The position numbers were made by a program, and so were the translations under genes. Source: a virus. From it: a DNA stretch of 28,684 nt. The notes beneath the pieces are model-generated. The model made no database searches. It was not told where the DNA came from and saw only the letters and a list, made by a program, of their open reading frames with translations. Numbering within the stretch: position 1 is the stretch's first letter; every line of letters begins with the position of its first letter. This document shows, piece after piece, positions 1,960 to 19,840 of this stretch. Location: the IMG/VR virus record IMGVR_UViG_3300013108_000113, positions 1 through 28,684 of that record. One strand, 5' to 3'.

Positions 1960-4107
1960 ATGTTAAACATAGTATGTACAAGCAAACCGTGTGATGGTTT
2001 ATTTTATTATAGTTATGAATACTGTTCACACCTAAACGAAAAAGGAATACGAGCACAAGTATACGTAGTAACTCATCGTGACTTTACTTCTGGTGATTAT
2101 ACAGAATCTATTAATGACAAATATATTCATTGTGAGAATATAGTATTTAACAATGATTATATTGAAGATGGTTGCACATCATTGATTCTAGGTAGAAGTA
2201 TGATGACTCTTGCTCATATGGCATGGAATGATTATAGACCAGTACAACAAGAATCACTTAAGAAATTATTTGGTAATAACGTTATTTCTGTTTACTCAGA
2301 AAATCATCCGAAGAAATATCCTAAAGCTCTAAAATTCTTTAAACCAAAAAAGGTTATTGATTTATGTGATACTGATGTTTATCCAAAAGGTGTTGGTGCA
2401 CACTTCGAAAAGATTATACATTTCCCTATATACAAAGAAGTTGAAGAAGATATTCAATTCGATCATTTATTCTTAGGCACAAATCCAGAGTATTATGAAA
2501 GTATAGAAAAAATAATAAGTGATTATCCCGATCATGGTATATTAACTTATCATCAAAATTACATAAACTTTGAGAATAACAATCTTAAATCTCCTGTTCC
2601 AAATCTATTAGGTAAATTCAAAACATATGTTTATACTAAAGACACATTTGATCCTGCACCAAGATTATTTCAAGAAGCAAGATGGCTTGGTAAAGAGATC
2701 ATTTATCATCGTAAAAATCCTACAAAGGATGGTGGTTACTGGTATTGGAAGAGAGGATTAAAGCAACAAGATTTAGAACCAATATTTGATGCACTTGATG
2801 AACTCGATGGTAAAATTAAATTAGAGACTCAATTAGTTAAAACAAATGTAACACAAATAGGTTCTGTAGAACAAGCCGATAATGTAGACTTTTATGAGGA
2901 TAGACTAGAATTACTTAATCAAATAAATGATGAATTTAATCATCACTTAGATTGGGGAACATCTAAAGGCGAAAGAGTTTGGTTTTGTAGTATGCCATAT
3001 CGAACACCATTTAGACACAAAGATGGTAAGTACTCACCGTGTAGTATTGGTAAAAAATCAGAAAAGAAATATGATTCAATAGAAGATTGGATGACAAGTG
3101 AAGAATTAAACAATATTCGCAAAGATATGTTAAACTTAAATGACTATGTATCTGATGGATGGTCAGAAATGGAAATACATTCAATGGGTATTTCTTATAT
3201 AGGCAAATATTGTACAGCATGTGTTAATGCTGAAAGACGTGAAGTAATCTCAAAGAGAATATCATCTAATCATCAGTATCAAGATCTATATAGAAATAAA
3301 TGGGATTCTGTTATAAATTCTGCCACAAAAATAATAAGAGGCCAAGAATATAAGATTGAAGGCAGAATGCTTGAAGTTGAAGTATGGGATGATTCTCAAT
3401 ACGATCAAATTATAGACATATCTGAAAAAATTCTAAAAATAAATTATAATGATGGACCATCATTTGAATTAATCAAAGGATTAGTCGATAAAAAACAAGC
3501 AAAGGAAATAGAATTAAGAATTGAGCTTGATAATCGTATATTAGATGGTGTTGAAGACGAGCAAGCAAAGTTTTTATATTTTGTTCCGTATTTTAAAAAG
3601 GTTATAATAGATGTAGCGATAGATGGAATTGGAGTATATAATAATTATTTAAATAGAACTAGCGATTATAAAATTATTAAAAAACGTATAGACGAACTTT
3701 CACGATATGAAAATGTTGTTATTCATTTACATTCTAAAGTAAATTTCTTAAGTGTATTACGCTTATACGAGATTCAATCTTTCTTAGGAAAATATAATCA
3801 TTACTGGTTACCGGACAACGAACCAAGTGTGATGAAATGTAATAACTTACCACATATAGTTAAATCTAAACTTATTCAAAAATATGCAAAGGGAAAGGCA
3901 GTAAATCTTAAAGGCATTGCTGATATTCTTAAACAACCTGAAGAAGAAGACTTTAGCAAGGAAAAACTATATAAATACTTAATGAGCATAGATGATAAAT
4001 ATAAAGGAACAGAGTGGGAAATGAATTTATTTGAAATATACCCAGAACTCAAATCCGAATACTTTTATCTAACCCATAAACCAAAAAATAAAAGAGGTAA
4101 AAAATGA
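1960..4107 (+). CDS. glycosyltransferase-like protein fused to a degenerate twitch/radical-SAM domain
   Basis: There are two parts in 715 residues. Residues 1-290 look like a GT-B-type glycosyltransferase; the clearest block is FDPAPRLFQEARWLGKEIIY (230-249), a motif shared with phage sugar transferases. Residues 330-705 align by eye with the two radical SAM proteins encoded downstream: a twitch/SPASM-like section with Cys343, Cys361, Cys418 and Cys421, then IDGIGVYNNYLNRTSDY (554-570), VNFLSVLRLYE (594-604), and a shared end YKGTEWEMNLFEIYPEL (681-697). Where the relatives carry CX3CX2C and GGEP, this protein has EVEVWDDSQYDQI (472-484) and no GGEP, so it cannot bind the SAM-cleaving iron-sulfur cluster in the normal way. 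It is likely a scaffold or pseudoenzyme partner joined to a transferase. It is first in the plus-strand run, 28 bases past a late promoter. Confidence 0.7.
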   Translation: MLNIVCTSKPCDGLFYYSYEYCSHLNEKGIRAQVYVVTHRDFTSGDYTESINDKYIHCENIVFNNDYIEDGCTSLILGRSMMTLAHMAWNDYRPVQQESLKKLFGNNVISVYSENHPKKYPKALKFFKPKKVIDLCDTDVYPKGVGAHFEKIIHFPIYKEVEEDIQFDHLFLGTNPEYYESIEKIISDYPDHGILTYHQNYINFENNNLKSPVPNLLGKFKTYVYTKDTFDPAPRLFQEARWLGKEIIYHRKNPTKDGGYWYWKRGLKQQDLEPIFDALDELDGKIKLETQLVKTNVTQIGSVEQADNVDFYEDRLELLNQINDEFNHHLDWGTSKGERVWFCSMPYRTPFRHKDGKYSPCSIGKKSEKKYDSIEDWMTSEELNNIRKDMLNLNDYVSDGWSEMEIHSMGISYIGKYCTACVNAERREVISKRISSNHQYQDLYRNKWDSVINSATKIIRGQEYKIEGRMLEVEVWDDSQYDQIIDISEKILKINYNDGPSFELIKGLVDKKQAKEIELRIELDNRILDGVEDEQAKFLYFVPYFKKVIIDVAIDGIGVYNNYLNRTSDYKIIKKRIDELSRYENVVIHLHSKVNFLSVLRLYEIQSFLGKYNHYWLPDNEPSVMKCNNLPHIVKSKLIQKYAKGKAVNLKGIADILKQPEEEDFSKEKLYKYLMSIDDKYKGTEWEMNLFEIYPELKSEYFYLTHKPKNKRGKK

Positions 4108-4769
4108 CACAATTAGAATTGTTAGATAAAAGAAGACACATTATGAAATTTTCTGATGATAATATTCCACCAAAATCTGTAATAGAAGATGTATTGTGGA
4201 AATCATGGAAAGTAACACCATCAAAAAATAGCTTTATGCCATATCATGTAAATGTATTAGGCCCAGATAAAGTAGAAGAGAAAAAAGCTATATGGCAAAA
4301 ATCTCAAAATAATAATGATACTCAAAATACAAAAAACTTTGGAGCTCCTAATCCTGTAGGTAATAATTTATTCTTTGAACATCTATCATCTACTCCATAT
4401 CTTTTAGTTTTTTCACAAAGAGTATGCGAGCCAAATGGACTCATAGCTAAAAACGTAGAAGCAGGTGCATACTATCAACAAATGCATGAAGATGAAGCTG
4501 ATGGAAATCAACAAGCTGTTGGTATAGAAGTTGGTATGTTTCATTCTAACCTAACTGCATTTGCCTTAGAAGCAGGATTAGACACATCGTGTATTCTTTG
4601 TTTTCCAAGTGATAGATCAAGTTGGACAGATATGGATTTTGTAGAAGGCCATGTTCTTTTACTTATGAGTATTGGATATTCTGAATTAGCAAGAAGAGAC
4701 TTTTTAACTGAAGCAGACTCAGCATTAGATAAAAAACCAGAGCCAGAAGAAGTAATTCGCTGGATATAA
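4104..4769 (+). CDS. nitroreductase-family flavoprotein
   Basis: The N-terminus LLDKRRHIMKFSDDNIP (Arg10-Arg11) and the block TPSKNSFMPYHVNV (38-51) match the FMN-phosphate and isoalloxazine contacts of the nitroreductase family; AFALEAGLDTSC fits the later helix around the flavin. Members are usually dimers that use NAD(P)H to reduce or oxidise small substrates, and some act as dehydrogenases in natural-product pathways. At 221 residues it has full family length. Its ATG overlaps the preceding stop (ATGA), so it is probably translationally coupled to the fusion gene. A second nitroreductase lies at 8532, after the two radical SAM genes. The substrate is unknown. Confidence 0.82.
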   Translation: MTQLELLDKRRHIMKFSDDNIPPKSVIEDVLWKSWKVTPSKNSFMPYHVNVLGPDKVEEKKAIWQKSQNNNDTQNTKNFGAPNPVGNNLFFEHLSSTPYLLVFSQRVCEPNGLIAKNVEAGAYYQQMHEDEADGNQQAVGIEVGMFHSNLTAFALEAGLDTSCILCFPSDRSSWTDMDFVEGHVLLLMSIGYSELARRDFLTEADSALDKKPEPEEVIRWI

Positions 4770-4772
4770 GTA

Positions 4773-4801
4773 TGTACAAATAAGCCAATATATGGTATAA
4801 T
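4773..4801 (+). promoter_or_regulatory. possible sigma70-type promoter with extended -10
   Basis: TGTACA (4 of 6 to consensus) is followed by a 17-base spacer and TGG-TATAAT, an extended -10 with a perfect hexamer. It lies in a 37-base gap, by far the largest in the plus-strand gene run. The predicted start of transcription (about 4807-4809) coincides with the next ATG at 4807, so a transcript from it would be nearly leaderless. Chance is possible in DNA this rich in A and T. Confidence 0.35.
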
Positions 4802-4806
4802 ATATT

Positions 4807-5406
4807 ATGGAACTTGAACCAATCGTTGCAGTATTGTTAATTGATTTTGAAGGGCATCCTGCTTTATCTGATGATGAAGTATTAAATAATCTTCGCTTTT
4901 CATATTTAAAATCATTAATATTTAATCCATTACCTGATAAAACAGATCCACTTAATGGATTTGTAAGAGGGCATAAATTTATATTTATTTCTGATCATGA
5001 TCCATATCAACCAAAGATAAATGAATTATATAACATGTCTGAAGCTGAAGGTTTTCATGAATGGATAATTATTCCACCCGAGTCTAAATTAAGCCCCCAT
5101 GAATTAAATGATTTAATAAACGACAAAGGTTATTATATACATAATATTATTGCTGGAGGATGTAATACAGCCGGATGTGTTATGAATAGTAGAACATATT
5201 CAGCTGTTCCATGGGCTAAAGCAGATTTTCCTATACAAATATTCCTTCCTATGTGTGCTGATTACCAATTTGGTGGTGCAACTACATATGAATCACAAAT
5301 GACGGCTATATGCAACCTTTTTAATGGATTAAAAGAAACTGAAACTATAGATACTTGTAAGGTTGTATCTAATATATGGGAGTTAAAACTAGACACAGAT
5401 GAGTAA
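4807..5406 (+). CDS. isochorismatase-like cysteine hydrolase (divergent)
   Basis: The 199-residue protein fits the isochorismatase-like fold. VAVLLIDF places Asp13 at the end of strand 1. PPESKLSPHEL supplies Lys94. IHNIIAGGCNTAGCVMNSRT places Cys124 after the turn that normally carries the cis-peptide. Asp, Lys and Cys at this spacing are the catalytic triad of the family, whose members hydrolyse amides such as nicotinamide or N-carbamoyl compounds, or the vinyl ether of isochorismate. Overall similarity is weak, so the fold call is by motif. No Shine-Dalgarno sequence precedes the ATG, but a sigma70-like -10 ends 5 bases upstream. Its 3' end overlaps the next gene by 8 bases. A carbamoyltransferase later in the run makes a carbamoyl or amide substrate conceivable, but this is inference. 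Confidence 0.55.
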   Translation: MELEPIVAVLLIDFEGHPALSDDEVLNNLRFSYLKSLIFNPLPDKTDPLNGFVRGHKFIFISDHDPYQPKINELYNMSEAEGFHEWIIIPPESKLSPHELNDLINDKGYYIHNIIAGGCNTAGCVMNSRTYSAVPWAKADFPIQIFLPMCADYQFGGATTYESQMTAICNLFNGLKETETIDTCKVVSNIWELKLDTDE

Positions 5407-6982
5407 AGATAATGAACCAATAGATTACGTAGACGAATGGAATGAACTTCCAAAGTTTATGACACGCAATGGTCCAGGTGACCATGAATTTGTAATATCT
5501 CCACTTGATGGTAAAGTTGATACATCATCTTGGTTTGTAGATCAGCTTACAAATGAAGTGGGTGATAATACAGGACCATGGAATTATAATCCAGATGTAC
5601 TTAAAGAAGGATCTATAGCTCAAATGTCAAAAGACCAAGAAATATTCTTTTGCGATATTCCATTTGGGCAAATATACACTGCGATGGGTGGTGAATATGC
5701 AGCATGTTGTTTTGGTGCAGAAGCAAGTGGTAAAGATGGATTGCCACATAATACTGTATATAATACTACATTATTAGAATGGATGGAAGAAGGCGAATAT
5801 ATGAATAATATTCGTAAAGAAATGTTAGATCCAAATTCAGATTATGAGTGGGTAAAAAAGACATGTAAGAGATGTATAGCTGATGAACACCGTTATGGTA
5901 GATCTAGAAGAACCGCTTGTATGAAAATTCATAGTAATGACCAAACATATTGGGACAAGATTGATTATACTGCTCGTATGTTTAAAGCCACAGGTGAATT
6001 TAAATTAGAACAAAGAGTATTTGAAGTTCAATTAAAAGTTTATGGTGATGAGTGTAACTTAGATTGTTATATGTGTATGCACAATAATTCATCTATTCGC
6101 CAGAAAGTTGCATTAGAAGGTGTGTGGAATCAACCTATATGGGATATGTCAGCTTGGAAAGTTCCATTAGATAATGAAGGCCAACCAGTAACTGAACTTG
6201 ACGGTTTAGATCCTTTAGTCAATGAAAAATCAAACTTCGAAGGTGATAACGTAGAATCTATGATAGAACAAACTGTTGCTATAGCTCCATATATTAACAG
6301 TATTAAAATTATCGGCGGTGAGCCTCTCATTATGAAAAAGCACTATGAGTTATTAAATAGATTGATAGAAGTAAATGAAGCTAAAAATATTACAATTAAA
6401 TATCAAACAAATCTTACAGAAACAAAAGCTGGTAAACATAATATATTCGACTATATACCACACTTTAAACTTGTTTGCATGGTAGCATCTGTTGATGGTG
6501 TAGGCCCGGTGATTGAATACATGCGAAGAAGAACCGATTGGAATAAAGTAATAAGGAATACCGAATATTGTAGAGAATACGATAATACCAATGTAGACTT
6601 TAATGGTTTAGTTTCTTTTCTAAGTGTAATGAGATTTTATGAAGTAATAGATTTTTGTTTAGAAACAAAAAGAACAACAAAGGATGGCAAAGAAGAACCA
6701 TTAATTGATGCAATAAATTGGGCATTATTAGAAACACCAAAACATTTAAGAGTAAATAATTTACCAGAAAAAATTAAAAAAGATTTAATACCTAAATACG
6801 AAAAATTCCCTGATATTCAATTTGCACTTAAAATGGAACCTGAACCAGATGTAGATATTCAAGATGTTTTTGATTATTTACTCAAAGGAGATGAGTATTA
6901 TACAGGTACTAAATGGGAAATGCATTTATTTGATGTGTTCCCAGAGCTAAAAGAATATTATATAAAACCAGAAGATAGATAA
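5399..6982 (+). CDS. twitch/SPASM-first (permuted) radical SAM protein, copy 1
   Basis: Two domains appear in unusual order over 527 residues. The first (about 80-165) is a twitch/SPASM-like cluster domain with Cys85, Cys103-Cys104, Cys156 and Cys159, ending CKRC. The second is the radical SAM core with CNLDCYMC (Cys219, Cys223, Cys226: CX3CX2C), which binds the 4Fe-4S cluster that cleaves S-adenosylmethionine, and the SAM-binding GGEP at 306-309. In most SPASM or twitch enzymes the accessory domain follows the core; here it precedes it, as in the family annotated as twitch domain-containing radical SAM proteins. A shared tail, YTGTKWEMHLFDVFPEL, closes the protein. It overlaps the hydrolase gene by 8 bases and the next paralog by 1 base (TAATG). 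The substrate is unknown. Confidence 0.85.
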   Translation: MSKDNEPIDYVDEWNELPKFMTRNGPGDHEFVISPLDGKVDTSSWFVDQLTNEVGDNTGPWNYNPDVLKEGSIAQMSKDQEIFFCDIPFGQIYTAMGGEYAACCFGAEASGKDGLPHNTVYNTTLLEWMEEGEYMNNIRKEMLDPNSDYEWVKKTCKRCIADEHRYGRSRRTACMKIHSNDQTYWDKIDYTARMFKATGEFKLEQRVFEVQLKVYGDECNLDCYMCMHNNSSIRQKVALEGVWNQPIWDMSAWKVPLDNEGQPVTELDGLDPLVNEKSNFEGDNVESMIEQTVAIAPYINSIKIIGGEPLIMKKHYELLNRLIEVNEAKNITIKYQTNLTETKAGKHNIFDYIPHFKLVCMVASVDGVGPVIEYMRRRTDWNKVIRNTEYCREYDNTNVDFNGLVSFLSVMRFYEVIDFCLETKRTTKDGKEEPLIDAINWALLETPKHLRVNNLPEKIKKDLIPKYEKFPDIQFALKMEPEPDVDIQDVFDYLLKGDEYYTGTKWEMHLFDVFPELKEYYIKPEDR

Positions 6983-8535
6983 TGAAACATATGACCAAAG
7001 GTGGCCCAGGAGATAAATTTCTGGGCAACGGTAAAGTAGATACAAGTAAATGGTTTGAGAGCACTCGTAACTTAGAACAAGAAATTAAAGATGGTGATAT
7101 TTGGTTTTGTTCTGCACCATTTCAATTATTATATACACACACGGATGGTGAGCTAGCTCCATGTTCTTGGGCCGCTGCCCAACAAGGTCCTAATATTAAA
7201 AATGTTAGTATTCTAGAATATTTTCAAAATGATAACGTTCTAAATAAAATACGTAAAGAAATGACTACACCTGGGTCTGATCTTAAACAAACTAATTTTA
7301 CATGTTATAATTGTAGACACCAAGAAGAATTATATGGTCGATCGAGGCGCCAAGCCTCTATGAAAATACAAACAAATGATAAAATTCTTTGGCCTAAAGT
7401 ACGAAATTCTGCAGAAGCTTTTATTAAAGACGGAAGGGTACATTTACAAGATAGAATATTTGAGGTACAAATAAAAGCCTTTGGTAATCAATGTAATTTA
7501 GATTGTTATATGTGTATTCCATATGATTCTACTGTTCGTTTAAAAACAATGAATTCAAAAGAATTAAAAGAGGAAAACATATTCTCAGATTATTCTAAAA
7601 CTAAATTAAACTTACCGTCGTCCGCAAAACTTGATGATGTAATAAGTCAAATTGTTCATCTTGCACCTTACATATACAATTTAAAATTAATTGGTGGTGA
7701 GCCATTAGTAATGAAGAAGTTCTATACATTATTAGAAAAAATAGTAAAGACTGGTCATGCTAAACATATTATGCTTAAGTACCAAACAAATATGTCTGTA
7801 TTAGAATTTGACAGGCATAAAGTATCAGATTTTATTCCGGAATTTAAGTTATTTGAATTTACAGTATCGCTAGATGGAATTGAGAAAGAAAATGATTATA
7901 TAAGGCGTAGATCTAGTTGGTCTAATGTACTTCACAATATGCAATATGTAAGTATGTTTCCAAATGTAAATGTAAATATAAATGGAACTATATCATTCTT
8001 ATCTGTACTTCGTTTTTATAGATTAATAGAATGGGCAAAGGAGAATGGAGATATAATACATCAAATTAATTGGTCAAACATACGTGGTCCTGCACGAATA
8101 TGTGCTAATGTATTACCACAAAAATTAAAAGATGAACTTATTCCAAAATATGAAGGATACCCCGATATACAAAATGTTTTAAAAGAAAGTAATCACGGAT
8201 TTACCCCGCAAGATGCCTTAGATTACTTAATTATGTTTGATAATAAATATAAAGGTACTAAGTGGGAAATGAATTTATTTGATGTATATCCTGAATTAGA
8301 AGAATTTTATAAACCAGGAATACCAAAAAGAGATGCAAACTTTAAAAATGATATTCATGTTATTAATGAAGATAATAATATACCACATCCAGAAAAACAA
8401 GAGGTAATTTCATCAAGAGGATATTATTACATAACTTCACGTCTTTCATGGTTAGGTATACCTGTGTATAAAGATCAGTGGTATAAACAACAACAAAATA
8501 TGATAAATTGGTTTAACAAAGGAGAAAAAAGATGA
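6982..8535 (+). CDS. twitch/SPASM-first (permuted) radical SAM protein, copy 2
   Basis: This is a paralog of the preceding gene (517 residues) with the same layout. The twitch-like cysteines are Cys43, Cys61, Cys108 and Cys111. The core motif CNLDCYMC is at Cys171, Cys175 and Cys178, and GGEP is at 238-241. The blocks RRRSSW and SFLSVLRFYRLIEW and the tail YKGTKWEMNLFDVYPELEEF are also shared. It differs by a C-terminal extension of roughly 75 residues after the shared tail, rich in aromatic and charged residues (SRGYYYITSRLSWLGIP), and by lacking the doubled Cys in the twitch segment. The tandem copies probably arose by duplication and then diverged, which suggests two different radical steps or a heteromeric complex. 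The next gene starts inside its last codons after a good GGAG site at 8521. Confidence 0.85.
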   Translation: MKHMTKGGPGDKFLGNGKVDTSKWFESTRNLEQEIKDGDIWFCSAPFQLLYTHTDGELAPCSWAAAQQGPNIKNVSILEYFQNDNVLNKIRKEMTTPGSDLKQTNFTCYNCRHQEELYGRSRRQASMKIQTNDKILWPKVRNSAEAFIKDGRVHLQDRIFEVQIKAFGNQCNLDCYMCIPYDSTVRLKTMNSKELKEENIFSDYSKTKLNLPSSAKLDDVISQIVHLAPYIYNLKLIGGEPLVMKKFYTLLEKIVKTGHAKHIMLKYQTNMSVLEFDRHKVSDFIPEFKLFEFTVSLDGIEKENDYIRRRSSWSNVLHNMQYVSMFPNVNVNINGTISFLSVLRFYRLIEWAKENGDIIHQINWSNIRGPARICANVLPQKLKDELIPKYEGYPDIQNVLKESNHGFTPQDALDYLIMFDNKYKGTKWEMNLFDVYPELEEFYKPGIPKRDANFKNDIHVINEDNNIPHPEKQEVISSRGYYYITSRLSWLGIPVYKDQWYKQQQNMINWFNKGEKR

Positions 8536-9350
8536 ACGCAAATGAGTCGTTAGAAAAAACAGAATGGAGAGACAAAATACGTGCATCTATTGACGTATCC
8601 AAAGTAGCACAAAGAAACTGGGATTTAACTCGTAGTATTTCAGACGAGGATTTAAATACATTAATTTATGCTGCAAGCAATAGCCCAACAAAGCAAATGG
8701 AAACACATTATGCTTTACATGTGCTTACACACCCAGCAAAGGTTAGAGAGATTTATGACCATACGAAAAAATTTACATTATTTCCAAATGATGCAACAGA
8801 CTTCAGTCAAGTTGAATCTGATATGTTTTCTGAAGGATCAGAAGGAGAGTTTGTACAAAACGATGATTATTCTGTAAAGAATTCTCAAATTCTATCGAAT
8901 GCTATGTTTGTTTATTGTGAAGATATGGGTGTTCCACGCGGAGGAACTCACTATATGGCACAAAAAGAAGGTGCGTCACCACATGTTAAATCACTTTATG
9001 AAGAGCAAGTTGATTTCTCGATTGGAATATCGGTTGGTCAATTATTGCTTTCAGCTGCGATGATGGGATATAAAACTGGTATTTGCTCAGCACTTGAATC
9101 TCAAGAAATAGGTGAACACTTACCAAGAGATAAAGATGGTCTAGTATATAATCCTAAATTAGTTATTGGCATTGGGTATGAAAATATAGGAGTTGATAGA
9201 ACATTCCATCAAGAAACATATAATAGAGATATACCTCATGAAAATCGTAGATCTGGACCACTTGATGAAAAGTTTCGTTTTCCTACATTCGAAGGTAAGT
9301 TAGCTGATGGTAAAAATTCTCGAGTATATATAAATGGAGTATTACAGTAA
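8532..9350 (+). CDS. nitroreductase-family flavoprotein, second copy
   Basis: The 272-residue protein has the family pattern RNWDLTRSISDEDLNTLIYAASNSP, split as RNWDLTRSI (28-36) and LIYAASNSPTKQMETHYAL (44-62), standing for the usual Arg-rich start and the P-S/N flavin-binding segment. GISVGQLLLSAAMMGYKTG corresponds to the helix and loop around the flavin in the C-terminal half. It is longer than the first nitroreductase (221 residues), has an inserted acidic segment around residues 85-105 and a C-terminal tail, and is only distantly related to it. The ATG at 8532 follows GGAGAAAAAAG. It sits between the radical SAM pair and the split radical SAM pair, so a redox partnership is plausible. 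The substrate cannot be inferred. Confidence 0.75.
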   Translation: MNANESLEKTEWRDKIRASIDVSKVAQRNWDLTRSISDEDLNTLIYAASNSPTKQMETHYALHVLTHPAKVREIYDHTKKFTLFPNDATDFSQVESDMFSEGSEGEFVQNDDYSVKNSQILSNAMFVYCEDMGVPRGGTHYMAQKEGASPHVKSLYEEQVDFSIGISVGQLLLSAAMMGYKTGICSALESQEIGEHLPRDKDGLVYNPKLVIGIGYENIGVDRTFHQETYNRDIPHENRRSGPLDEKFRFPTFEGKLADGKNSRVYINGVLQ

Positions 9351-9748
9351 TGAGCTCATCTGAGGCAGCAATGAATAAACAAAAAGAAGATCAAGAAGCA
9401 CAAGAACTTGATATTGGTGAATTTAAATTAAAGATTGAACCACGATGTTTAACCTTTAATCCGAAATCTTACCATAAACCTGCTGCTTATACATCTGATG
9501 GATTTATGCTTCCATGCTGTTGGTTAGATGACCCAAAAAATGATTTTGGTGTAGAATATTTTGGTATGAAAGAGGAGCATCTTCGAGTAAGAAATGTTGA
9601 TAAACTTGAAGACATATTTAAATCTGAAGAATGGAATCATTTCTTTTGGACATTACTACATGACCAAAAACACGCAATGAAGCATTGTAAATATAAATGT
9701 GGTAATCTAAGGAAAGATAACAATTTATATATGACAGAAACAATATAA
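9350..9748 (+). CDS. free-standing twitch/SPASM-like iron-sulfur domain protein
   Basis: There are 132 residues and no radical SAM core. Cys33, then DGFMLPCCW (Cys56-Cys57), then CKYKC (Cys113, Cys117), separated by a segment IFKSEEWNHFFW, follow the layout of SPASM/twitch auxiliary-cluster domains: an aromatic or acidic lead, pCC, a helix with a Trp, and a closing C-x-x-x-C. The same pattern forms the N-terminal domain of the two permuted radical SAM proteins upstream. It is directly followed, after 4 bases, by a radical SAM core that lacks such a domain, so the two probably form one enzyme made of two chains. The N-terminus (1-22) is charged and likely disordered. The start TAATG overlaps the previous stop. 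Confidence 0.6.
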   Translation: MSSSEAAMNKQKEDQEAQELDIGEFKLKIEPRCLTFNPKSYHKPAAYTSDGFMLPCCWLDDPKNDFGVEYFGMKEEHLRVRNVDKLEDIFKSEEWNHFFWTLLHDQKHAMKHCKYKCGNLRKDNNLYMTETI

Positions 9749-12365: not shown

Positions 12366-13134
12366 GAATAATAAAAAATATTTAATAGTAAGCGGAGATA
12401 GCTTTACTGATAAAAATATGAGATCAGCAGCATATCCAGATATGGATACATCTTGGCCTAAATGGCCAGAGTTATTAGGTAAAAAATTAAATATGGAAGT
12501 AATTAATTTAGCATATTCTGGTTCAGGTAATGAATATATATTTTCTACATTACAAGATTGTGTTATGGATATACCTAAAGAACGAATAGGATTAGTTGTT
12601 GCCGCTTGGTCTCAAGCACAAAGAAGAGATTTTCAAACAGGATATAAAAATGGTACTAGAAGCTGGGGTCAAGAAAGGGTAGATTCGTGTGGTGATTTAA
12701 TGTATTTTACTCGTAGATCTTTAAGATATTTTTTAGCTTTTCAACATATGTGTGAAAGATATGATTTACCATATTTTCAAACTCAAATGATAGATCTATA
12801 TAAAGACTATATAGATGGATTAGCTCCTACTGAACGTGAAGTAGTAATTGAAGGTAAAGATCTTTTTAAAGATGGAATGACATATCCTGGTGATAAGAAA
12901 AGAGATGAAGAAGAATTAATACAACTCATTTTAAGTTATGAAAATAAAATAGATACAAGTAAATTTATTGGTTGGCCAATTACAAGAACTCTTGGTGGAT
13001 GGCCAATAAATCGTGGCGTAATAGGATGGAGTGTAGAGCAAGAAGCACCTTATGTTATAGATGAGCATGATAATCATCCGAATGCAGCAGGACAAGAATT
13101 AATAGCGGAGTATTTTTATGACTGGTTGGGATAG
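12355..13134 (+). CDS. SGNH/GDSL hydrolase-like protein, copy 2
   Basis: This is a close paralog of the preceding gene: SGDSFTD (Ser16), MDTSWPKWPE, YSGSGNEYI, GLVVAAWSQ, RRDFQ, and the end block HDNHPNAAGQELIA with Asp239 and His241. At 259 residues it lacks the insertion found in copy 1. The start is GTG at 12355, with GGAG at 12341-12344 giving good spacing; no ATG lies in frame before the first motif. It overlaps copy 1 by 11 bases, and the next gene starts inside it. The tandem pair, sharing many identical segments, points to duplication within the phage lineage with a change of substrate or formation of a heterodimer. Confidence 0.68.
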   Translation: MLYENNKKYLIVSGDSFTDKNMRSAAYPDMDTSWPKWPELLGKKLNMEVINLAYSGSGNEYIFSTLQDCVMDIPKERIGLVVAAWSQAQRRDFQTGYKNGTRSWGQERVDSCGDLMYFTRRSLRYFLAFQHMCERYDLPYFQTQMIDLYKDYIDGLAPTEREVVIEGKDLFKDGMTYPGDKKRDEEELIQLILSYENKIDTSKFIGWPITRTLGGWPINRGVIGWSVEQEAPYVIDEHDNHPNAAGQELIAEYFYDWLG

Positions 13135-14188
13135 AGATTATTTAGAACATAAAGATGAGTATTTAGAAATCTTTGATAGTTCAATGCAGAAAGAACAAGA
13201 AAGAAATATAGAATTTCTTGAAAAGAGTTTAAAAGAATTAACAAGTAGAAAGTTTGCAGTTGCTTGTAGTAGCGGAACGGATGCTTTACTTTTTGCACTA
13301 TTAGGTTTAGATCTGCAATCTAATGATGAAGTATTAGTAACTAATTTCTCTTGGATCTCTTCAGCTTCGTGTGTATCACTAGCTGGTGCTGTTCCAGTAT
13401 TTTGCGATGTAGACTTAGACACATATCATATATCATTAGATAGTATAAAGAGGATGGTAAGCGATAAAACAAAAGCAATTGTTTATCCATTTCTATTTGG
13501 AAGTATATCTAATACATTTGAGATACAAGCTTTTTGTAAAGAGAATGATATAGTGTTTATTGAAGATGCTTGTCAAGCCATAGGTTCTACGCTTATGACT
13601 AAGCAAGGCAATATGGTTGCAGGTAATATAGGAGATATTAGTACATTTAGTTTTAACGCAAACAAACAAGTTGCTGGTATTGCTGGAGGTGGTGCAGTAC
13701 TCACAGATGATAAAGAACAAGCTGTGTTATTTAGAAAATTAAGAAAGCATGGTGAACATGAAGTATTAGGATATAATTCTAAGATGCTTGGTATGAATGC
13801 TGACTTTATTAATTTTAGATTAACAAAGATGAATGATTGGAATGCGAAGAGACAAGAGATTGCAAAGAAGTATGATAATGTTTTTCAAATGTGTGATATA
13901 CATATACAGCAACCGACAGATGACGAATACCATACTTACCATAAATATGTAGTAAGGTTTAAAGACACAGAAACAAGAGATGCAATTAAAGAAAAAATAA
14001 AAGGTAGTGGTGTACATTATCCTAAACCTATAAGTGAACATCCGATGTATGAAAATATAAAACATAGAAAGGATGATTACCCAAATGCAAAACAAATAAG
14101 TGAAACAATATTAACTTTACCTATGCATCCATACTTGACTGAAGAAGAAATAAATGAAATAACAAACACAATTATGATTTTAGCATGA
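13118..14188 (+). CDS. DegT/DnrJ/EryC1/StrS-family PLP aminotransferase
   Basis: The protein is typical of sugar and aminocyclitol aminotransferases of the DegT family. It has CSSGTDALLFAL (50-61) for phosphate binding, IEDACQAIGS with the PLP-contacting Asp150, SFNANKQVAG with the Schiff-base Lys183, and YNSKMLGMNADFINFRLTKM for the dimer region. At 356 residues it is close to full length. The family converts keto sugars or keto-cyclitols to amino sugars, using Glu or Gln as donor, and is a hallmark of nucleotide-sugar, O-antigen and aminoglycoside pathways. Its ATG at 13118 follows GGAG at 13106. It is the clearest pointer to sugar chemistry in this gene run. The exact substrate is unknown. 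Confidence 0.9.
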   Translation: MTGWDRDYLEHKDEYLEIFDSSMQKEQERNIEFLEKSLKELTSRKFAVACSSGTDALLFALLGLDLQSNDEVLVTNFSWISSASCVSLAGAVPVFCDVDLDTYHISLDSIKRMVSDKTKAIVYPFLFGSISNTFEIQAFCKENDIVFIEDACQAIGSTLMTKQGNMVAGNIGDISTFSFNANKQVAGIAGGGAVLTDDKEQAVLFRKLRKHGEHEVLGYNSKMLGMNADFINFRLTKMNDWNAKRQEIAKKYDNVFQMCDIHIQQPTDDEYHTYHKYVVRFKDTETRDAIKEKIKGSGVHYPKPISEHPMYENIKHRKDDYPNAKQISETILTLPMHPYLTEEEINEITNTIMILA

Positions 14189-14493
14189 TACAAATAATCC
14201 ACGAAAATATTGTATTAATTGATAAAGACGGTAACTGGAACTGGCTTAATGATGAAGCTTTAGAAGCGTTATGCCATAATGTAAGATTTTATGTTATAAA
14301 TGATGATAAAATATTTAATGAAGAACATAAGGGTGATTGCGAAGATATATATTCTTATATTATAGAAAAAATATATACTATGCAAGATTATCCTAAATGG
14401 AATGATGTACCGTTTAAAGATAAACCTAAAGCAAAACTAGTAATAGCATTGAATAAATTTGTATATGATAAGATTAACGGACGTACAGAATAA
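14185..14493 (+). CDS. small acidic protein of unknown function
   Basis: This gene encodes 102 residues that I do not recognise. It is rich in Asp, Glu, Asn, Ile and Trp (GNWNWLNDEALEAL near residues 16-29) with a basic end (KPKAKLVIALNKFVYDK). There is no signal peptide or membrane segment. The ATG overlaps the aminotransferase stop (ATGA), and the last 29 bases overlap the start of the next radical SAM gene, so it is tightly coupled to both. The coupling suggests a small partner or carrier for the radical SAM enzyme, but no Ser of a carrier-protein motif or clear peptide leader is visible. Two Cys residues (near 30 and 52) are present. That it is a real gene rests on frame, length and exact fit between neighbours. 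Confidence 0.6.
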   Translation: MIQIIHENIVLIDKDGNWNWLNDEALEALCHNVRFYVINDDKIFNEEHKGDCEDIYSYIIEKIYTMQDYPKWNDVPFKDKPKAKLVIALNKFVYDKINGRTE

Positions 14494-15304
14494 ATATCTA
14501 GCAATAGATTTCTTTTTGACAATGTCCTGTAATAAGGATTGCCACTATTGTACTAGCTATACTTTAGAACAAAGGAATCTAACAGTTGATATGGAATTCT
14601 TAAATAGAACCTTATACTATTTAAGAAATTATAAAGTAAGATGTAACTTGCTTGGCGGTGAACCTGGATTAATTAAAAATTTACCTGATGTAATCAAAGC
14701 AATTCAAAGTAATCCTAATCATGTATGCGAAGTACTATCTAATTCTACTGTTCGTAGAAGATACCCACAAGTATTAGAAGATGAGAATATCATTTATGTT
14801 GAACATTTTATATTAGACTTTTATGAACATGAAATATCTCTATTAGGGCCAAAATCATATGACTTCCACCCTGAAAATGATAAGAATAATTATAATCTAG
14901 TAATTAAGACACCTAACTTTGAGAAGTATAAACATCTATATCCTGAAGCTATGGCTAAATTAGATCATAAGAATACTTTGTGGAAAGAGTTTAATGGACG
15001 AGCACCAGATTTTAATGAAATAAAATTAAATATGCAGGCAGCAGAGATAGATAGGAAGATGTGTGCAGCATTTCCTATGGTGCCTGTTATTAATTTTGAG
15101 AACCAAAACTTGGTACATTGTAGTAAGAAGTTTGCAAACAATGCTATCACATCAAAAGAATTTGAGATCACTCAAGAGAATATAGATAAGATGATGAATT
15201 TCAGATTATTTAAATATGAAAACTATTGTAAAGGTTGTATGGAATATGTACAACCAAAAGGACATTTTAATATTAAAAAATATGCGAGCATACTAAATGA
15301 ATAA
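14465..15304 (+). CDS. radical SAM protein with C-terminal Cys-rich region
   Basis: CNKDCHYC (Cys22, Cys26, Cys29 counted from ATG 14465) is a CX3CX2C cluster motif near the N-terminus, and GGEP (64-67) is the SAM-binding motif. This protein has the standard order, core first. Several Cys follow: KMCAAFP, VHCSKKF and the closing YCKGC, which suggest an auxiliary iron-sulfur cluster of SPASM or twitch type. It has 279 residues. The start is uncertain: TTG at 14459 lies in frame and neither site has a strong Shine-Dalgarno. It is less similar to the permuted radical SAM proteins upstream, so it is a separate recruit. It overlaps the carbamoyltransferase gene by 8 bases, suggesting sequential steps or a complex. 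Confidence 0.82.
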   Translation: MIRLTDVQNKYLAIDFFLTMSCNKDCHYCTSYTLEQRNLTVDMEFLNRTLYYLRNYKVRCNLLGGEPGLIKNLPDVIKAIQSNPNHVCEVLSNSTVRRRYPQVLEDENIIYVEHFILDFYEHEISLLGPKSYDFHPENDKNNYNLVIKTPNFEKYKHLYPEAMAKLDHKNTLWKEFNGRAPDFNEIKLNMQAAEIDRKMCAAFPMVPVINFENQNLVHCSKKFANNAITSKEFEITQENIDKMMNFRLFKYENYCKGCMEYVQPKGHFNIKKYASILNE

Positions 15305-16919
15305 AAAAATAATGGGAGTAGCGTTAAACCTACACGATCACAATACATATGATGGGGTATGGCATAACCAAAGAGAAAGGGAAACACGATTTAAGCATAA
15401 CCTACCTTATAAGGCAGAAGCTTATGCTCATCAATCAGATGTATTAAACCCTAGTGATTATAAACTTAATGATGCATTCACAAAAGAATATTTCCATAAA
15501 CCTGATGATGGTGTACTAGCATTCACATACACATACGGTGGAGTAAGGATGTCAAAGCCAGAATTATTAGAAGGCATCCTCAAGGGTCATGAGGAAATAT
15601 TTGAATGGCAACCTAAAAAATTATGGGATCATTATTATAAAGATGACATATATTTTATAGATCATCATCAATCTCACGCAGCATATGCCTTTATTAATTC
15701 AGGCTATGAACAATCAGATAAATTAGCTATTGATGGTATTGGCAATAGATATAGATGTTGTTTCTTTGATAAAGATGATAATATGACTGATCTATCTGAT
15801 GTACTACCTATTGGTTGGTTATGGAATCATATGTCTAACCTTACTGGATTTGGTACTTTAGGTGCAGGTAAACTTATGGGATTATCTGGTTATGGTAGAA
15901 GAAATGATTATTTTTATGAAATATTCGAAACAATACTTGCTGGTCCAATTACTGAAAAGAAACAAGAGAAATTTGAAGAACACATTGATTTAAAAAGATA
16001 TAGAAAGGAAGATTTAGCACATACTCTAGAAATATTTACATTAGACAAAATAAGAGAATATGTTTATCCACTTAAATCTTCTAATAATTTGTGTGTTGCT
16101 GGTGGTGTATCTTATAATGGATACATGAATGAAGAGTTTACAAAGGTATGGGAAAATGTTTATGTACCTCCAGCGGTTGGCGATGAAGGCCAAGCTTGCG
16201 GAGCATATCAACATGCTGACTATGTATTAAATGGAAATAAACATATAGTAGATACTTATTCTGGTTGGGACTATAGTGAATGGCCAGAAAATCTTGAAAA
16301 TAGACTTGGTAAAAAAAGAAACCCAAGTAAAATGGATGCTTTTGAATGGGGTTATGAAAACTTACATTGGGAACCACTTGATATAAAGGTAGTTGCTAGT
16401 GCAATTGCTGATGGCAAAATAATAGGTTGGTTCCAAGGTAAAGGAGAGAGTGGTAATCGTGCATTAGGTAATCGTAGTATTTTAGCAGATCCACGTAATC
16501 CTGATATAAAAAATATTATCAATAGAACCATAAAAATGAGAGAAGACTTTAGACCATTTGCTCCTGCTGTACTAGAAGATCATTATCAAGATTGGTTTGA
16601 TACAAATCAACCATCACCATACATGTCAAGAATTATGCCTGTTAAATCTGATAAGATTCCTGGTGTAACACATGTTGATGGTACAGCAAGAATTCAAACA
16701 GTAAATATGTCACAAAATATAAGGTTTTGGAATATTATTAATGAATTCTATAAGATAACAGATATACCTATGTTGCTCAATACTAGTTTTAATTCTCAAG
16801 AACCTATCGTAGAAGAACCGTGGCATGCTGTCCGCACGTTCCGTGAAACAGCTATAGATATATTAGTAATTAATGATTGGATGTTAATTAAAAAAGTGAC
16901 ACATGACGGATGGTTATAA
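15297..16919 (+). CDS. NodU/TobZ-type O-carbamoyltransferase
   Basis: The 540-residue protein has both domains of the family. The N-terminal Kae1-like domain has the metal-binding HHQSHA (123-128) and IDGIGNRYR, plus GGVSYNG. The C-terminal domain has GKGESGNRALGNRSI (about 380-394), REDFRPFAPAVL, and TSFNSQEPIVEEPWHA. These enzymes make carbamoyl-adenylate from carbamoyl phosphate and ATP and transfer the carbamoyl group to a hydroxyl, as in nodulation factors, tobramycin and cephamycin. The usual G-P-R-A-L-G is G-N-R-A-L-G here, with the Arg kept. The likely acceptor is a sugar or cyclitol made by the neighbouring genes. It is the most confidently identified enzyme of the run and supports a decorated sugar product. 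Confidence 0.95.
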   Translation: MNKKIMGVALNLHDHNTYDGVWHNQRERETRFKHNLPYKAEAYAHQSDVLNPSDYKLNDAFTKEYFHKPDDGVLAFTYTYGGVRMSKPELLEGILKGHEEIFEWQPKKLWDHYYKDDIYFIDHHQSHAAYAFINSGYEQSDKLAIDGIGNRYRCCFFDKDDNMTDLSDVLPIGWLWNHMSNLTGFGTLGAGKLMGLSGYGRRNDYFYEIFETILAGPITEKKQEKFEEHIDLKRYRKEDLAHTLEIFTLDKIREYVYPLKSSNNLCVAGGVSYNGYMNEEFTKVWENVYVPPAVGDEGQACGAYQHADYVLNGNKHIVDTYSGWDYSEWPENLENRLGKKRNPSKMDAFEWGYENLHWEPLDIKVVASAIADGKIIGWFQGKGESGNRALGNRSILADPRNPDIKNIINRTIKMREDFRPFAPAVLEDHYQDWFDTNQPSPYMSRIMPVKSDKIPGVTHVDGTARIQTVNMSQNIRFWNIINEFYKITDIPMLLNTSFNSQEPIVEEPWHAVRTFRETAIDILVINDWMLIKKVTHDGWL

Positions 16920-17693
16920 ATGTTAACAAGAGATGAGTTAGTATATATTAAAAATATATTAAATGTATCGAATACAAAAAATATAGATTTTAGTTTACTT
17001 GATAATGTGTTTACAGCCTTTGAGCATGAACCAAACTTTAAAGATGATATTTACGATTCATTTAGTCGTAATCAATTCTTAGCTAAAAGCAATTTAGTTC
17101 AAAGATTAGATGATCTCAACCTTTTAAATAAAGATACCGAAGTTGTTATTTGGGGTTGTTGGTATGGAAGTATTCTTATACCATTACTACACGATAAGGT
17201 TCGTAAAATTACTGCAATAGATTTTGATGATAATGTTGTTACTATTGGTAAAAATAGATTATTTGAAGAATATTTTAAAGTTGATTGGATAACTGGTGAC
17301 TTATTTGAAGACTATAAAGAAGCATATAATGATGCTGATATTTTTATTAATACATCATGTGAACATATGTTACCAATGAAATGGTGGGGACCAAAGGGCC
17401 CTAGATCATCGCATAATTATTTTTTAGAATGGGATGGTGATTATAGAAGAGAATGGAAAGGTGCAGATGAAAATAATTGGCCAGTATATGATATAGCATG
17501 GTGGGATCGGGTTAAACCTACAGCACACTTTGCTTTTACATCAAATGACATGCATGATATTGAAGGCCATATTAATTGCGTAGATAGCATAGAAGAGTTT
17601 AAACTACAACTACCACCCGGTGCAGAAGTGTTGGCAGAGGATGAATTAGAAGACGAGAGAGGTACCAGATACCTATTAATAGGAAAGATATGA
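16920..17693 (+). CDS. class I SAM-dependent methyltransferase-like protein
   Basis: VVIWGCWYGSILIP (75-88) is a motif I glycine-containing SAM loop in a modified form, and ITAIDFDDNVV ends the second strand with the acidic Asp101 that contacts the ribose of SAM. INTSCEHM (about 142-149) fits the motif IV strand. The 257-residue protein begins with an extra helical region of about 70 residues. Trp-rich segments (MKWWGPKGP, NNWPVYDIAWWD) after motif IV are unusual and could form the substrate pocket. The gene begins directly after the carbamoyltransferase stop (TAA-ATG) and overlaps the next gene by ATGA. A role in O- or N-methylation of the cluster product is inferred. Confidence 0.7.
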   Translation: MLTRDELVYIKNILNVSNTKNIDFSLLDNVFTAFEHEPNFKDDIYDSFSRNQFLAKSNLVQRLDDLNLLNKDTEVVIWGCWYGSILIPLLHDKVRKITAIDFDDNVVTIGKNRLFEEYFKVDWITGDLFEDYKEAYNDADIFINTSCEHMLPMKWWGPKGPRSSHNYFLEWDGDYRREWKGADENNWPVYDIAWWDRVKPTAHFAFTSNDMHDIEGHINCVDSIEEFKLQLPPGAEVLAEDELEDERGTRYLLIGKI

Positions 17694-18547
17694 AAAGAAT
17701 AATCTATAGTATCTATGTCGACATACCGGCACCTGAACATTATGGCACAACATCAAAAAGTAAATGGGACACAGAAGAGAAAGCAACTGTTACAGTTGAT
17801 GCCTTTAAAGAACATTATGATCGATTAATTGAATGTAAAAAAGTTTATGCTGAACGTATAGGTGTACCTTTTAAGATGTACCTATATGATAAAAGGTATA
17901 TAGAGTTCGAAGAGAAATTTAAACGTGACTTTCCAGAGGTTACCGGATATGAGATAATAAATTTCTATAAGTTACACGTATTGTATGAATTATCAAAGAG
18001 TTATGACGAAATTCTATATCTAGACTTTGATGCTATACCGATGAATCATTCGGTTAACTTCTTTGAAGAATGGGATTTATCTAAAGGTATATGTGTCCTT
18101 GACAATAATGAAAAGATTGTTCATAATGTAGAAGTAAGCCAAAGCATTCGTAGTCCATCAGCAAAATATTATAATTGCCAAGCGATGTTAATAGATGGTG
18201 GTTATCATCCTGATAATGATGTAATCAATACTGGTATTGTTGGAGCAAGGGCAGAACATATAAAGCAATTAGATTATTGGGGTGATTTTCGTGAAACATT
18301 AGATCTTATGACAAGATTAAGATACGAAGAATCTGATATATACCCACAAAATATTATTGATATGTTTAGATATGATAATGAAACAATCTTTTCATATAAA
18401 GTAAAAACAACAAATACTCCTATACAATGGCTTAATCCAAGATGGCATTACTTTTTTGATATGCAAAGATTTGTACCAGCTTCAGCAAAAATAGTCCATG
18501 CAATTTGTAAAGACTTTGATATTGTATGGAGAAGATACGATGCTTAA
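17690..18547 (+). CDS. GT-A-type glycosyltransferase-like protein with DxD motif, first of three
   Basis: This 285-residue protein has EILYLDFDAIP with the DxD motif (Asp112, Asp114), the metal and nucleotide-sugar phosphate site of GT-A glycosyltransferases. Upstream, the segments NFYKLHVLYELSKSYDE match the helix that precedes this strand in such enzymes. VINTGIVGAR (about 180-189) is the usual N-T-G-I acceptor-loop block. The family is diverse, so the donor is unknown. It is followed by two further DxD proteins, 245 and 188 residues, suggesting sequential sugar additions. No membrane segment is seen, so it acts in the cytoplasm. Confidence 0.68.
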   Translation: MKRIIYSIYVDIPAPEHYGTTSKSKWDTEEKATVTVDAFKEHYDRLIECKKVYAERIGVPFKMYLYDKRYIEFEEKFKRDFPEVTGYEIINFYKLHVLYELSKSYDEILYLDFDAIPMNHSVNFFEEWDLSKGICVLDNNEKIVHNVEVSQSIRSPSAKYYNCQAMLIDGGYHPDNDVINTGIVGARAEHIKQLDYWGDFRETLDLMTRLRYEESDIYPQNIIDMFRYDNETIFSYKVKTTNTPIQWLNPRWHYFFDMQRFVPASAKIVHAICKDFDIVWRRYDA

Positions 18548-19277
18548 GATATGCACAGTATATTATGGTGATAGATACACGCCAGACTATGTAGGTAAAT
18601 TATACGATAGTATAAGAAGAAACTGTAGTATACCATTTCAATCAATTTGTATTAGTGATAATCCGGATGTCGAAGCTGATATAATATTACCATATAATCA
18701 TCATAGCAATGTAAAAAAGCATTGGCATAAACTAAAGTTCTTTTCTCCCTATTATGGTTATCAAGATCCAGGTGATGATATAATAATTATGGATATTGAC
18801 CAGGTTATTACTGGTAATGTTGATGACCTTATAGGACATCCAGTACAAGAGAACGAATTAGTTACTTATGGTATATGGTGGAAATCTAAGCTACACACAA
18901 ATGGAGGATTTTATAAATTTAAATCTGGTAGTTTATCGTATGTATGGGATGACTTTATTTTAAATCCTGAGTATTGGCAAATGCATTACTATGATATAAG
19001 AGAAGTACATTTTCCATATTATGGAGAACAAAACTATGTTAATTGGAGAGCTGATGAACATAATATAAAGTTAATTAAAACGCCTGAAGAATGGATAGGT
19101 AAGTGTGATATGGATATTGATGAAGATACATCAAATAATAGAATATACTGCGAAAAATTTGGTGACTTTATGTTTATGGATGAAGTAAATCCACATATCA
19201 AAGTAATACATTTTACAGGTTTAGAAAATAATATACACAATAATCGTAATGGATGGATTAAGGATCATTGGAAATGA
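18540..19277 (+). CDS. GT-A-type glycosyltransferase-like protein with DxD motif, second of three
   Basis: The N-terminus KICTVYYGDRYTPDYVGKL resembles small GT-A proteins of phage and bacterial glycan clusters; IIIMDIDQVI (81-90) carries the DxD motif (Asp85, Asp87). HTNGGFYKFKSG and a late EVNPHIKVIHFTG provide a typical final strand with a His that could bind metal. I chose ATG at 18540 because GGAGAAG at 18528-18534 sits 5 bases before it; an upstream ATG at 18498 has no such site and would extend 42 bases further into the previous gene. The length is 245 residues. The gene overlaps the previous one by 8 bases and the next by 4. Confidence 0.68.
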   Translation: MLKICTVYYGDRYTPDYVGKLYDSIRRNCSIPFQSICISDNPDVEADIILPYNHHSNVKKHWHKLKFFSPYYGYQDPGDDIIIMDIDQVITGNVDDLIGHPVQENELVTYGIWWKSKLHTNGGFYKFKSGSLSYVWDDFILNPEYWQMHYYDIREVHFPYYGEQNYVNWRADEHNIKLIKTPEEWIGKCDMDIDEDTSNNRIYCEKFGDFMFMDEVNPHIKVIHFTGLENNIHNNRNGWIKDHWK

Positions 19278-19840
19278 GAAGAATAATAGCTTGTAGATTC
19301 GGAGATAAGTTTACTCAATGGCATGTTGATAACTTAAGGCACATGATTGATACTTATTCAGGTATACAGTATGACCAATTTGAAGTTATTGAAACAGATT
19401 TATATGGTAATTGGTATAATAAATTTCAGATGTATGACAAGTTTAGAGATGGTGAGAACCTTTATTTTGATTTAGATATGATTATATACGGAAGGTTACC
19501 AAATCTATTTAGAAAAAACTTTACACTATTAGATGATAAATGGTGGAGAGAACCAGCACATACCCCACTCAATTCATCAATTGTTTCTTGGACTGGAGAT
19601 GTATCTCATATATGGGAGAAGTTTTGGCCTTATGCAGATATGTACATGGAAAAATATAATAAGGGTAGTGATGAATGGTATTATAAAGAAATAGAATATA
19701 ACATATATGATCCGGTATGCCCGAAGTTTAAAGTGGAAGGGTGTGATCCTTACTTCAATGTGTGCACCTTAGGACAGATGCACCACATTATGGAAGAAGG
19801 GTGGACCGGATGGTGGTCCCCTTGGTTGTTAAAGCGTTAA
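19274..19840 (+). CDS. short GT-A-type glycosyltransferase-like protein with DxD motif, third of three
   Basis: This protein has 188 residues from ATG 19274, which overlaps the preceding TGA (ATGA); TTG at 19268 is in frame but less likely. MRRIIACRFGDKFTQWHVDNL resembles the start of the second glycosyltransferase, split here as MRRIIACRFGDKF and QWHVDNL. ENLYFDLDMII (61-71) has the DxD motif (Asp66, Asp68). NSSIVSWTGD could be the acceptor loop. It is much shorter than its two neighbours, with a Trp-rich end (GWTGWWSPW), so either the acceptor domain is reduced or it works with another subunit. It is the last gene of the plus-strand run; its stop abuts the stop of the convergent structural gene. 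Confidence 0.62.
   Translation: MRRIIACRFGDKFTQWHVDNLRHMIDTYSGIQYDQFEVIETDLYGNWYNKFQMYDKFRDGENLYFDLDMIIYGRLPNLFRKNFTLLDDKWWREPAHTPLNSSIVSWTGDVSHIWEKFWPYADMYMEKYNKGSDEWYYKEIEYNIYDPVCPKFKVEGCDPYFNVCTLGQMHHIMEEGWTGWWSPWLLKR

Follow-up and report, generated by a model that had tools for sequence, protein, structure and literature searches.

A gene run in a marine T4-type phage with a conserved core and separable cassettes, read as a probable glycan pathway

The window analysed here is a 28,684-base virus fragment (IMG/VR record IMGVR_UViG_3300013108_000113), part of a T4-type marine phage, in which 19 collinear genes on the + strand occupy positions 1960-19840. The best reading of this run is that it is probably a phage-specific pathway for a glycan containing a decorated sugar. 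The run is made up of a conserved core and of separable accessory cassettes, which account for about one third of its genes, and a block of about a dozen of its enzymes is widespread in marine phages. The gene families, their conserved order, the active-site residues, the late-promoter motifs and the absence of the signature enzyme, radical S-adenosylmethionine (SAM) protein D, from the sampled hosts were observed directly.

The original prediction for this DNA, made from the letters and their open reading frames, had described a complete pathway for a decorated sugar or cyclitol. The 19-gene run of the enzymes that it listed is confirmed as real. As predicted, nearly all of the genes overlap or abut, this being the case for 17 of the 18 junctions (15 overlaps and two at 0 or +4 nt; the remaining one is +37 nt). 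Given that the order is kept in dozens of contigs and that the ratio of nonsynonymous to synonymous substitution rates (dN/dS) is below 0.6 for each gene, the run is more than a chance assembly. The proteins were checked against Pfam, NCBIfam and PHROGs; several of the family matches were weak and motifs were therefore tested on homologues. All the listed families are present except that the cysteine hydrolase at 4807-5406 could not be confirmed. The word 'complete' does not hold, the window having neither a nucleotide-sugar dehydratase nor a cyclitol synthase and so many of the genes being separable. The core genes and a small gene among them are as follows, with identities to Mosig (EXVC030M, MT647606), a Pelagibacter phage in culture; GT denotes glycosyltransferase and PLP pyridoxal phosphate.

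12355-13134, + strand: SGNH protein 2, core; Ser and Asp-x-His invariant (50/50), weak Pfam match.
13118-14188, + strand: DegT aminotransferase, core; PF01041 with E 2.7e-80, PLP lysine K183 in 63/63.
14185-14493, + strand: small protein, which in Mosig_00087 forms the C-terminal end of a fusion with DegT (from the comparison with Mosig).
14465-15304, + strand: radical SAM D with C-terminal cysteines, the core signature enzyme; 71% identity to Mosig_00088.
15297-16919, + strand: NodU/TobZ-type carbamoyltransferase, core; PF16861 and PF02543, HHxxH and DEG in 49/49.
16920-17693, + strand: methyltransferase-like protein, core; weak PF13649, 48% identity to Mosig_00090.
17690-18547, + strand: GT-A glycosyltransferase 1 (GT1), GT8-like, core; weak PF01501, DxD in 46/46.
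18498-19277, + strand: GT-A glycosyltransferase 2 (GT2), core; PHROG 1962 glycosyltransferase, DxD in 48/48.
19268-19840, + strand: GT-A glycosyltransferase 3 (GT3), core; PHROG 1962, DxD in 38/38.

Conservation of the run was examined in 201 distinct contigs, the loci being retrieved with the QueC-like protein, radical SAM D and radical SAM A/B and then compared with the proteins of the window. These contigs are related and were partly retrieved via radical SAM D, whose identity ranges from about 50 to 99%, and so they are not independent samples. The order DegT, radical SAM D, carbamoyltransferase, methyltransferase, GT1, GT2, GT3 was collinear in all 59 contigs containing the seven genes, and the order of the first four was kept in 78 of 78. 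In the 65 contigs where radical SAM D is flanked by 4 kb or more in each direction, a carbamoyltransferase was found nearby on the same strand in every case (65/65) and DegT in 60/65. The original prediction had named a conserved neighbourhood as its own test; with the core collinear across relatives, the independent scattering of homologues that would have spoken against it was not seen. The core is thus supported as one inherited unit.

The enzymes of the core point to sugar chemistry, as had been proposed: the DegT protein matches nucleoside diphosphate (NDP)-sugar aminotransferases, the carbamoyltransferase is TobZ/GdmN-like, there are four glycosyltransferase genes in the run and relatives have epimerase neighbours. 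DegT scored 165 bits with QdtB and 139 with WbpE, both NDP-sugar aminotransferases, as against about 105 for the 2-deoxy-scyllo-inosose aminotransferases; its top match, at 189 bits, was 7b0d, which its depositors name a scyllo-inositol transaminase. No cyclitol synthase was present among the Pfam matches of the run, though one could be elsewhere in the genome. A nucleotide sugar appears to fit better than a cyclitol as the substrate class, and the cyclitol part of the prediction is not upheld. The window has no epimerase/GDP-mannose-dehydratase-type gene, but in 42 contigs one borders on the core, Mosig (Mosig_00096) being among them. The carbamoyltransferase has both domains and the metal-site motifs of TobZ, NodU and GdmN, and TobZ and GdmN are its nearest solved structures.

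Combinations of DegT, radical SAM, carbamoyltransferase and methyltransferase enzymes are typical of antibiotic sugar pathways. Such a combination, together with the likeness to TobZ and GdmN, would suit a cluster whose product is a diffusible small molecule, aminoglycoside- or nucleoside-like, acting on the host or on competitors. This is improbable, since the Pfam matches of the run include no exporter, self-resistance, scaffold-forming or cyclitol synthase gene, the four glycosyltransferase genes are core and the adjacency to tail genes is conserved.

Four intact radical SAM proteins with a CxxxCxxC motif are encoded in the run (5399-6982, 6982-8535, 9753-10571 and 14465-15304), the first three of them outside the core and accompanied there by a degenerate relative and a twitch protein.

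1960-4107, + strand: putative GT-B-like domain, spanning roughly residues 1-290, joined to an N-twitch radical SAM relative without CxxxCxxC; Mosig_00083, NF033640.
5399-6982, + strand: radical SAM A, an N-terminal twitch and then the radical SAM core; NF033640 at 271.5 bits, cut-off 170.
6982-8535, + strand: radical SAM B, a paralogue of A; NF033640 at 282 bits, cut-off 170.
9350-9748, + strand: stand-alone twitch partner; weak SPASM match.
9753-10571, + strand: radical SAM C; PF04055, CX3CX2C invariant in 13 homologues.

In radical SAM D, cysteines 22/26/29/200/219/255/258 were invariant in 12 homologues; the mean predicted local distance difference test score (pLDDT) of its predicted structure was 66. 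Its identity as a prokaryotic viperin was rejected (29.6 bits compared with the NF038283 cut-off of 180), and PADLOC matches to viperin, DndA and QueC were weak and non-specific. A separate twitch-like gene occurs within the cluster in 51 other contigs, and the twitch is fused to radical SAM C in L016 and L035; two twitch genes in succession precede radical SAM C in a 171 kb genome (L173 8604-9232). In about 26 contigs (L064 118-1833) the opposite strand upstream of the core encodes a B12-binding radical SAM protein. Genes for Fe-S assembly are also found in relatives, PF01883 within the cluster in nine contigs (L194 11587-11925) and an A-type carrier near the QueC cassette (L173 11850-12188), and look as if they supply the radical SAM enzymes.

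The cluster cysteines of radical SAM A/B were invariant across 21 homologues. Both window proteins score above the cut-off of the N-twitch family NF033640, for which NCBIfam lists only a subfamily and no reaction. The AlphaFold model of radical SAM B had a mean pLDDT of 81 and its radical SAM core resembles radical SAM enzymes in the PDB. The fold search named no substrate, giving a core-only match (query-normalised TM ~0.3) across maturases of ribosomally synthesised and post-translationally modified peptides (RiPPs), MoaA, BlsE and viperins. The twitch of A/B is at the N-terminus, whereas that of the RiPP maturases is a C-terminal SPASM domain, and no precursor peptide was found, although the search for one was not systematic.

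The fused protein at 1960-4107 bears out the prediction of a degenerate radical SAM relative joined to a glycosyltransferase, the GT-B part being a reading of the sequence. The N-terminal part, a putative GT-B-like transferase domain, shares 54% identity with Mosig_00083. Mosig_00083 (L005 12410-13276) is annotated as a molybdenum cofactor (MoaA-type) enzyme, yet it is without CxxxCxxC and matches the glycosyltransferase-like domain. The C-terminal half is related to radical SAM A/B (NF033640 at 95.7 bits, below the cut-off of 170) and has lost the cysteine motif, as has its counterpart in L006; CNLDCxMC is kept in L008, L020, L016, L104 and L133. This half is constrained, with a dN/dS of 0.21 against L006, and it may therefore retain a structural role.

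Cellular N-twitch radical SAM proteins above the cut-off are rare, being found in 2/399, 1/369 and 2/385 genomes (one genome was counted twice). Of the four loci, one contains Wzm, Wzt, RmlC, RmlD and WbsX, with one radical SAM protein fused to Wzt, two have GT2 and epimerase-type genes and one has only a methyltransferase nearby. This surface-polysaccharide setting independently supports a glycan role for radical SAM A/B. One bacterial polysaccharide locus (L250 4235-11143) has four successive N-twitch radical SAM genes, one of them fused to a Wzt ABC ATPase, with a TylF-type methyltransferase, WbsX, RmlC and RmlD as neighbours.

The remaining genes of the run, none of them counted as core, are the following.

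4104-4769, + strand: nitroreductase-family protein 1 (N1); PF00881, 30% identity to Mosig_00082.
4807-5406, + strand: tentative isochorismatase-like cysteine hydrolase (CH); Cys124 in GGxNxxGCV.
8532-9350, + strand: nitroreductase-family protein 2 (N2, NTR2); PF00881.
10571-11452, + strand: QueC-like PP-loop ATPase; PF06508, a weak match just above the cut-off.
11427-12365, + strand: SGNH protein 1; Lipase_GDSL with E 8e-5, just below the gathering score, alternative TTG start at 11421.

The protein at 4807-5406 gave no match to Pfam or PDB profiles. Its Cys124 was invariant in 13 homologues and the Asp nearly so, while the conserved Lys of the triad was not seen at the expected place; a cysteine hydrolase is plausible. 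Each of 14 homologues in the QueC-like family has the SGGxDS loop together with the zinc cysteines (C(x)n-CxxCxxC), whose spacing exceeds the canonical C(x)8CxxCxxC. The canonical QueC substrate motifs are YxQxHxxE, VPxRN and YPDC (PMC13329287), and none of the three was found in any of the 14 homologues, so preQ0 synthesis, and with it the identity as QueC, is unlikely for this family. The step probably forms an amide on a sugar carboxylate; the arrangement in Pelagibacter phage HTVC008M hints in the same direction. There (L257 8024-12171) a methyltransferase, a carbamoyltransferase, a NadE-like (N-type) ATPase and a UDP-sugar dehydrogenase are side by side, possibly a uronamide cassette. The HTVC008M carbamoyltransferase is only 31% identical to that of the window, has no radical SAM, DegT or glycosyltransferase gene beside it (as annotated) and is not next to tail fibres.

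Enzymes of the QueC-like, PLP and glycosyltransferase types occur in phage DNA hypermodification pathways. The presence of the same types in the run would allow them to make or decorate a modified DNA base. This is very improbable: besides the missing substrate motifs, the window has no QueD, QueE or FolE and no nucleotide kinase or hydrolase, the late-promoter motif described below suggests expression after DNA synthesis starts, and a restriction system was reported in only one of more than 100 SAR11 genomes (PMC7029224).

Among the 78 contigs with the core, radical SAM A was present in 26, radical SAM B in 25, the QueC-like gene in 37 and NTR2 in 22; the close relative L006 (91-100% identity over most genes) is without radical SAM B. 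The genes for radical SAM B, N1, the hydrolase-like protein and radical SAM A form a lone four-gene cassette (RB-N1-CH-RA) in 15 contigs, in L115 and L111 between a tail-tube-like gene and UvsY/UvsW. A second cassette of N2, optionally radical SAM B, the twitch protein, radical SAM C and the QueC-like protein (N2-(RB)-tw-RC-Qc) stands alone in seven contigs and is separated from the core in L173 and L180. As regards the prediction of one pathway, the core is supported as a unit of inheritance; the twitch-radical SAM pair, the nitroreductases, the hydrolase-like protein and the QueC-like protein are accessory cassettes, sometimes located elsewhere.

From this modularity it could be argued that radical SAM A/B, the nitroreductase, the hydrolase-like protein and the QueC-like protein belong to a separate peptide, nucleotide or cofactor pathway, that only the genes from DegT to GT3 make a glycan and that the operon is shared by accretion within a hypervariable island. 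The lone and displaced cassettes would agree with this, as would the absence of A/B and the QueC-like gene from Mosig and the RiPP maturases at the top of the radical SAM B fold matches. Separate function is nevertheless unlikely, for in both long records with a displaced cassette, of 128 and 171 kb, the core is present at another site, the A/B relatives from cells belong to polysaccharide loci, a glycosyltransferase-like domain is fused to one paralogue and the incomplete search for a precursor peptide found none.

The setting of the run was predicted to be one of late promoters and tail fibres, and this is supported by the conserved position of the promoter motif and by PHROG tail fibre families.

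1913-1920, - strand: T4-type late promoter motif TATAAATA, assigned to the divergent operon (desaturase, aminotransferase, 2-oxoglutarate oxygenase); exact, located 21 nt upstream of a gene starting at 1891 and conserved among relatives.
1924-1931, + strand: T4-type late promoter motif TATAAATA, assigned to the run of 19 genes; exact, 28 nt before the ATG at 1960.
19841-28235, - strand: tail-associated genes in convergent orientation, two of them tail fibres (21480-23840 and 23860-27978, by PHROG tail fibre family).

The motif TATAAATA, the T4-type late promoter core, occurs back-to-back in the intergenic region 1892-1959, each copy correctly oriented for its divergent unit. A copy likewise precedes the first gene of the + strand in Mosig, L006, L008, L020, L022, L049, L075, L104 and L133. 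A scan for sigma-70-like promoters gave fewer sites than shuffled sequences and a terminator scan was near chance. The run is apparently expressed late. At this locus tail fibres and glycosyltransferases are together in one variable island, and the homologue of 19841-20488 comes after the core in 35/37 testable loci. The divergent unit at 1-1891 (- strand) encodes desaturase-like (fatty acid), aminotransferase-like and 2-oxoglutarate-oxygenase-like proteins. Its Mosig equivalent also has peroxiredoxin, FMN reductase, methylase and acetyltransferase genes and resembles a second small pathway.

Radical SAM D was found in 1/297 SAR11-order genomes, two more giving only a trivial core match. Cellular copies were sought in 84,980 genomes by a pattern scan, which can miss distant relatives, and only three contigs of metagenome-assembled genomes (MAGs) contained it. 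These cluster contigs, L152, L153 and L154, are from Gammaproteobacteria, Pelagibacter and Rhodobiaceae MAGs respectively. L152 and L154 carry flanking phage tail genes and are therefore phage sequence binned with cells; L153, the SAR11 one, is wholly inside the cluster. A search of SAR11-order genomes for radical SAM B, made without a positive control, gave no match. The pathway appears to be phage-specific.

The glycan pathway could proceed as follows. A nucleotide-linked keto-sugar would come from host enzymes or from the product of the epimerase/dehydratase-like gene found beside the core in relatives, would be aminated by DegT and would then be remodelled by radical SAM D. Carbamoyl and methyl groups would be added, possibly with an acyl change by SGNH, and the finished sugar would be transferred by the three GT-A enzymes and the one putative GT-B enzyme. 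Further changes would be made by two optional cassettes, one of N-twitch radical SAM A/B, a nitroreductase and the hydrolase-like protein and the other of radical SAM C, twitch, QueC-like ATPase and a nitroreductase. The pathway would be cytosolic and the acceptor would be a structural protein of the virion, for instance a tail fibre, or the host lipopolysaccharide (LPS). Late expression would make the virion protein the more likely acceptor with LPS close behind; late-type promoters and the tail locus favour the virion, and host surface modification is nearly as likely.

The same enzymes may decorate LPS or another surface glycan of the host during infection, blocking competing phages or the adsorption of progeny to debris, a tentative possibility. 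Such a role was proposed for the island glycosyltransferases by Zaragoza-Solas et al. 2020 (PMC7029224), and cellular relatives of radical SAM A/B are in ABC-transporter O-antigen-type loci. The late-type motifs suggest expression when exclusion is least useful and the run lacks the membrane proteins of O-antigen modification, although the LPS-core transferases are cytosolic and so the missing membrane proteins do not exclude this role. No clear transmembrane protein, flippase or polymerase was found in the run, the sole marginal membrane-like stretch being in DegT. The probabilities given to the alternatives overlap because the rivals share a glycan-pathway core.

Several points weigh against the glycan pathway as a whole. 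The core gene distances correlate mutually (r 0.67-0.88) and to a similar degree with those of the adjacent tail gene, so co-inheritance cannot separate one pathway from simple linkage. The accessory cassettes, being also found apart from the core, may serve another molecule. No nucleotide-sugar dehydratase was found within the window. The assignments of the methyltransferase, the SGNH proteins, GT1-3 and the hydrolase depend on weak profile matches, those of the three GT-A proteins to Pfam being weak or absent. Over the whole window TATAAATA is at its chance frequency (8 found compared with 7.1 expected) and only its conserved position is informative. The substrate and acceptor are what we infer, and likewise the order of the steps, the late timing and the action of the cassettes on the same molecule.

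Mosig has a syntenic cluster, Mosig_00082-00094, situated as in the window between the divergent desaturase/aminotransferase genes and tail genes, with homologues of 14/19 window genes in nearly the same order (67% identity for the carbamoyltransferase, 71% for radical SAM D). It differs in lacking radical SAM A/B, the fused radical SAM half, the hydrolase-like and QueC-like genes and the second SGNH gene, in the fusion of DegT to the small protein and in the location of NTR2 between GT2 and GT3. The Mosig cluster is annotated gene by gene only and the genome announcement does not discuss it (PMC7892664). The hypervariable host recognition cluster of pelagimyophages described by Zaragoza-Solas et al. 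2020 contains tail fibres, GT8-type glycosyltransferases and radical SAM cassettes, and O-chain modification was proposed for it (PMC7029224). As in the window, tail fibres, glycosyltransferases and radical SAM genes are in one island; unlike the window, the main text of that paper has no carbamoyltransferase, aminotransferase, nitroreductase, pathway or conserved order (PMC7029224). VrlC, which with gp14 is the published border of the cluster, is beyond the convergent tail-side genes in Mosig, and the window is only a 28.7 kb fragment. Apart from that 2020 paper, the literature search turned up no account of this gene set. The original prediction recognised no described phage system, and no published account of the gene set came to light, while the 2020 island and cultured Mosig already carry the setting and the core. 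A glycosyltransferase-rich host-recognition island has been known since 2020; the pathway itself was not described with it.

A bolder and rather doubtful extension is that marine T4-type phages have their own host-independent, radical-SAM-rich pathway, supported in some members by phage Fe-S assembly genes, making a sugar not known from cells that is put on tail fibres.

SAR11 bacteria are among the most abundant cells on Earth. Their phages appear to devote 12-18 kb of late-type genes to a sugar pathway whose signature enzyme is missing from the hosts. Since the cultured pair of Mosig and HTCC1062 has the core, the product is open to direct search. If the sugar were found on the virion, it would mean that phages make complex glycans and do not borrow them. 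The pathway, if true, would also provide the first substrate class for the N-twitch radical SAM family.

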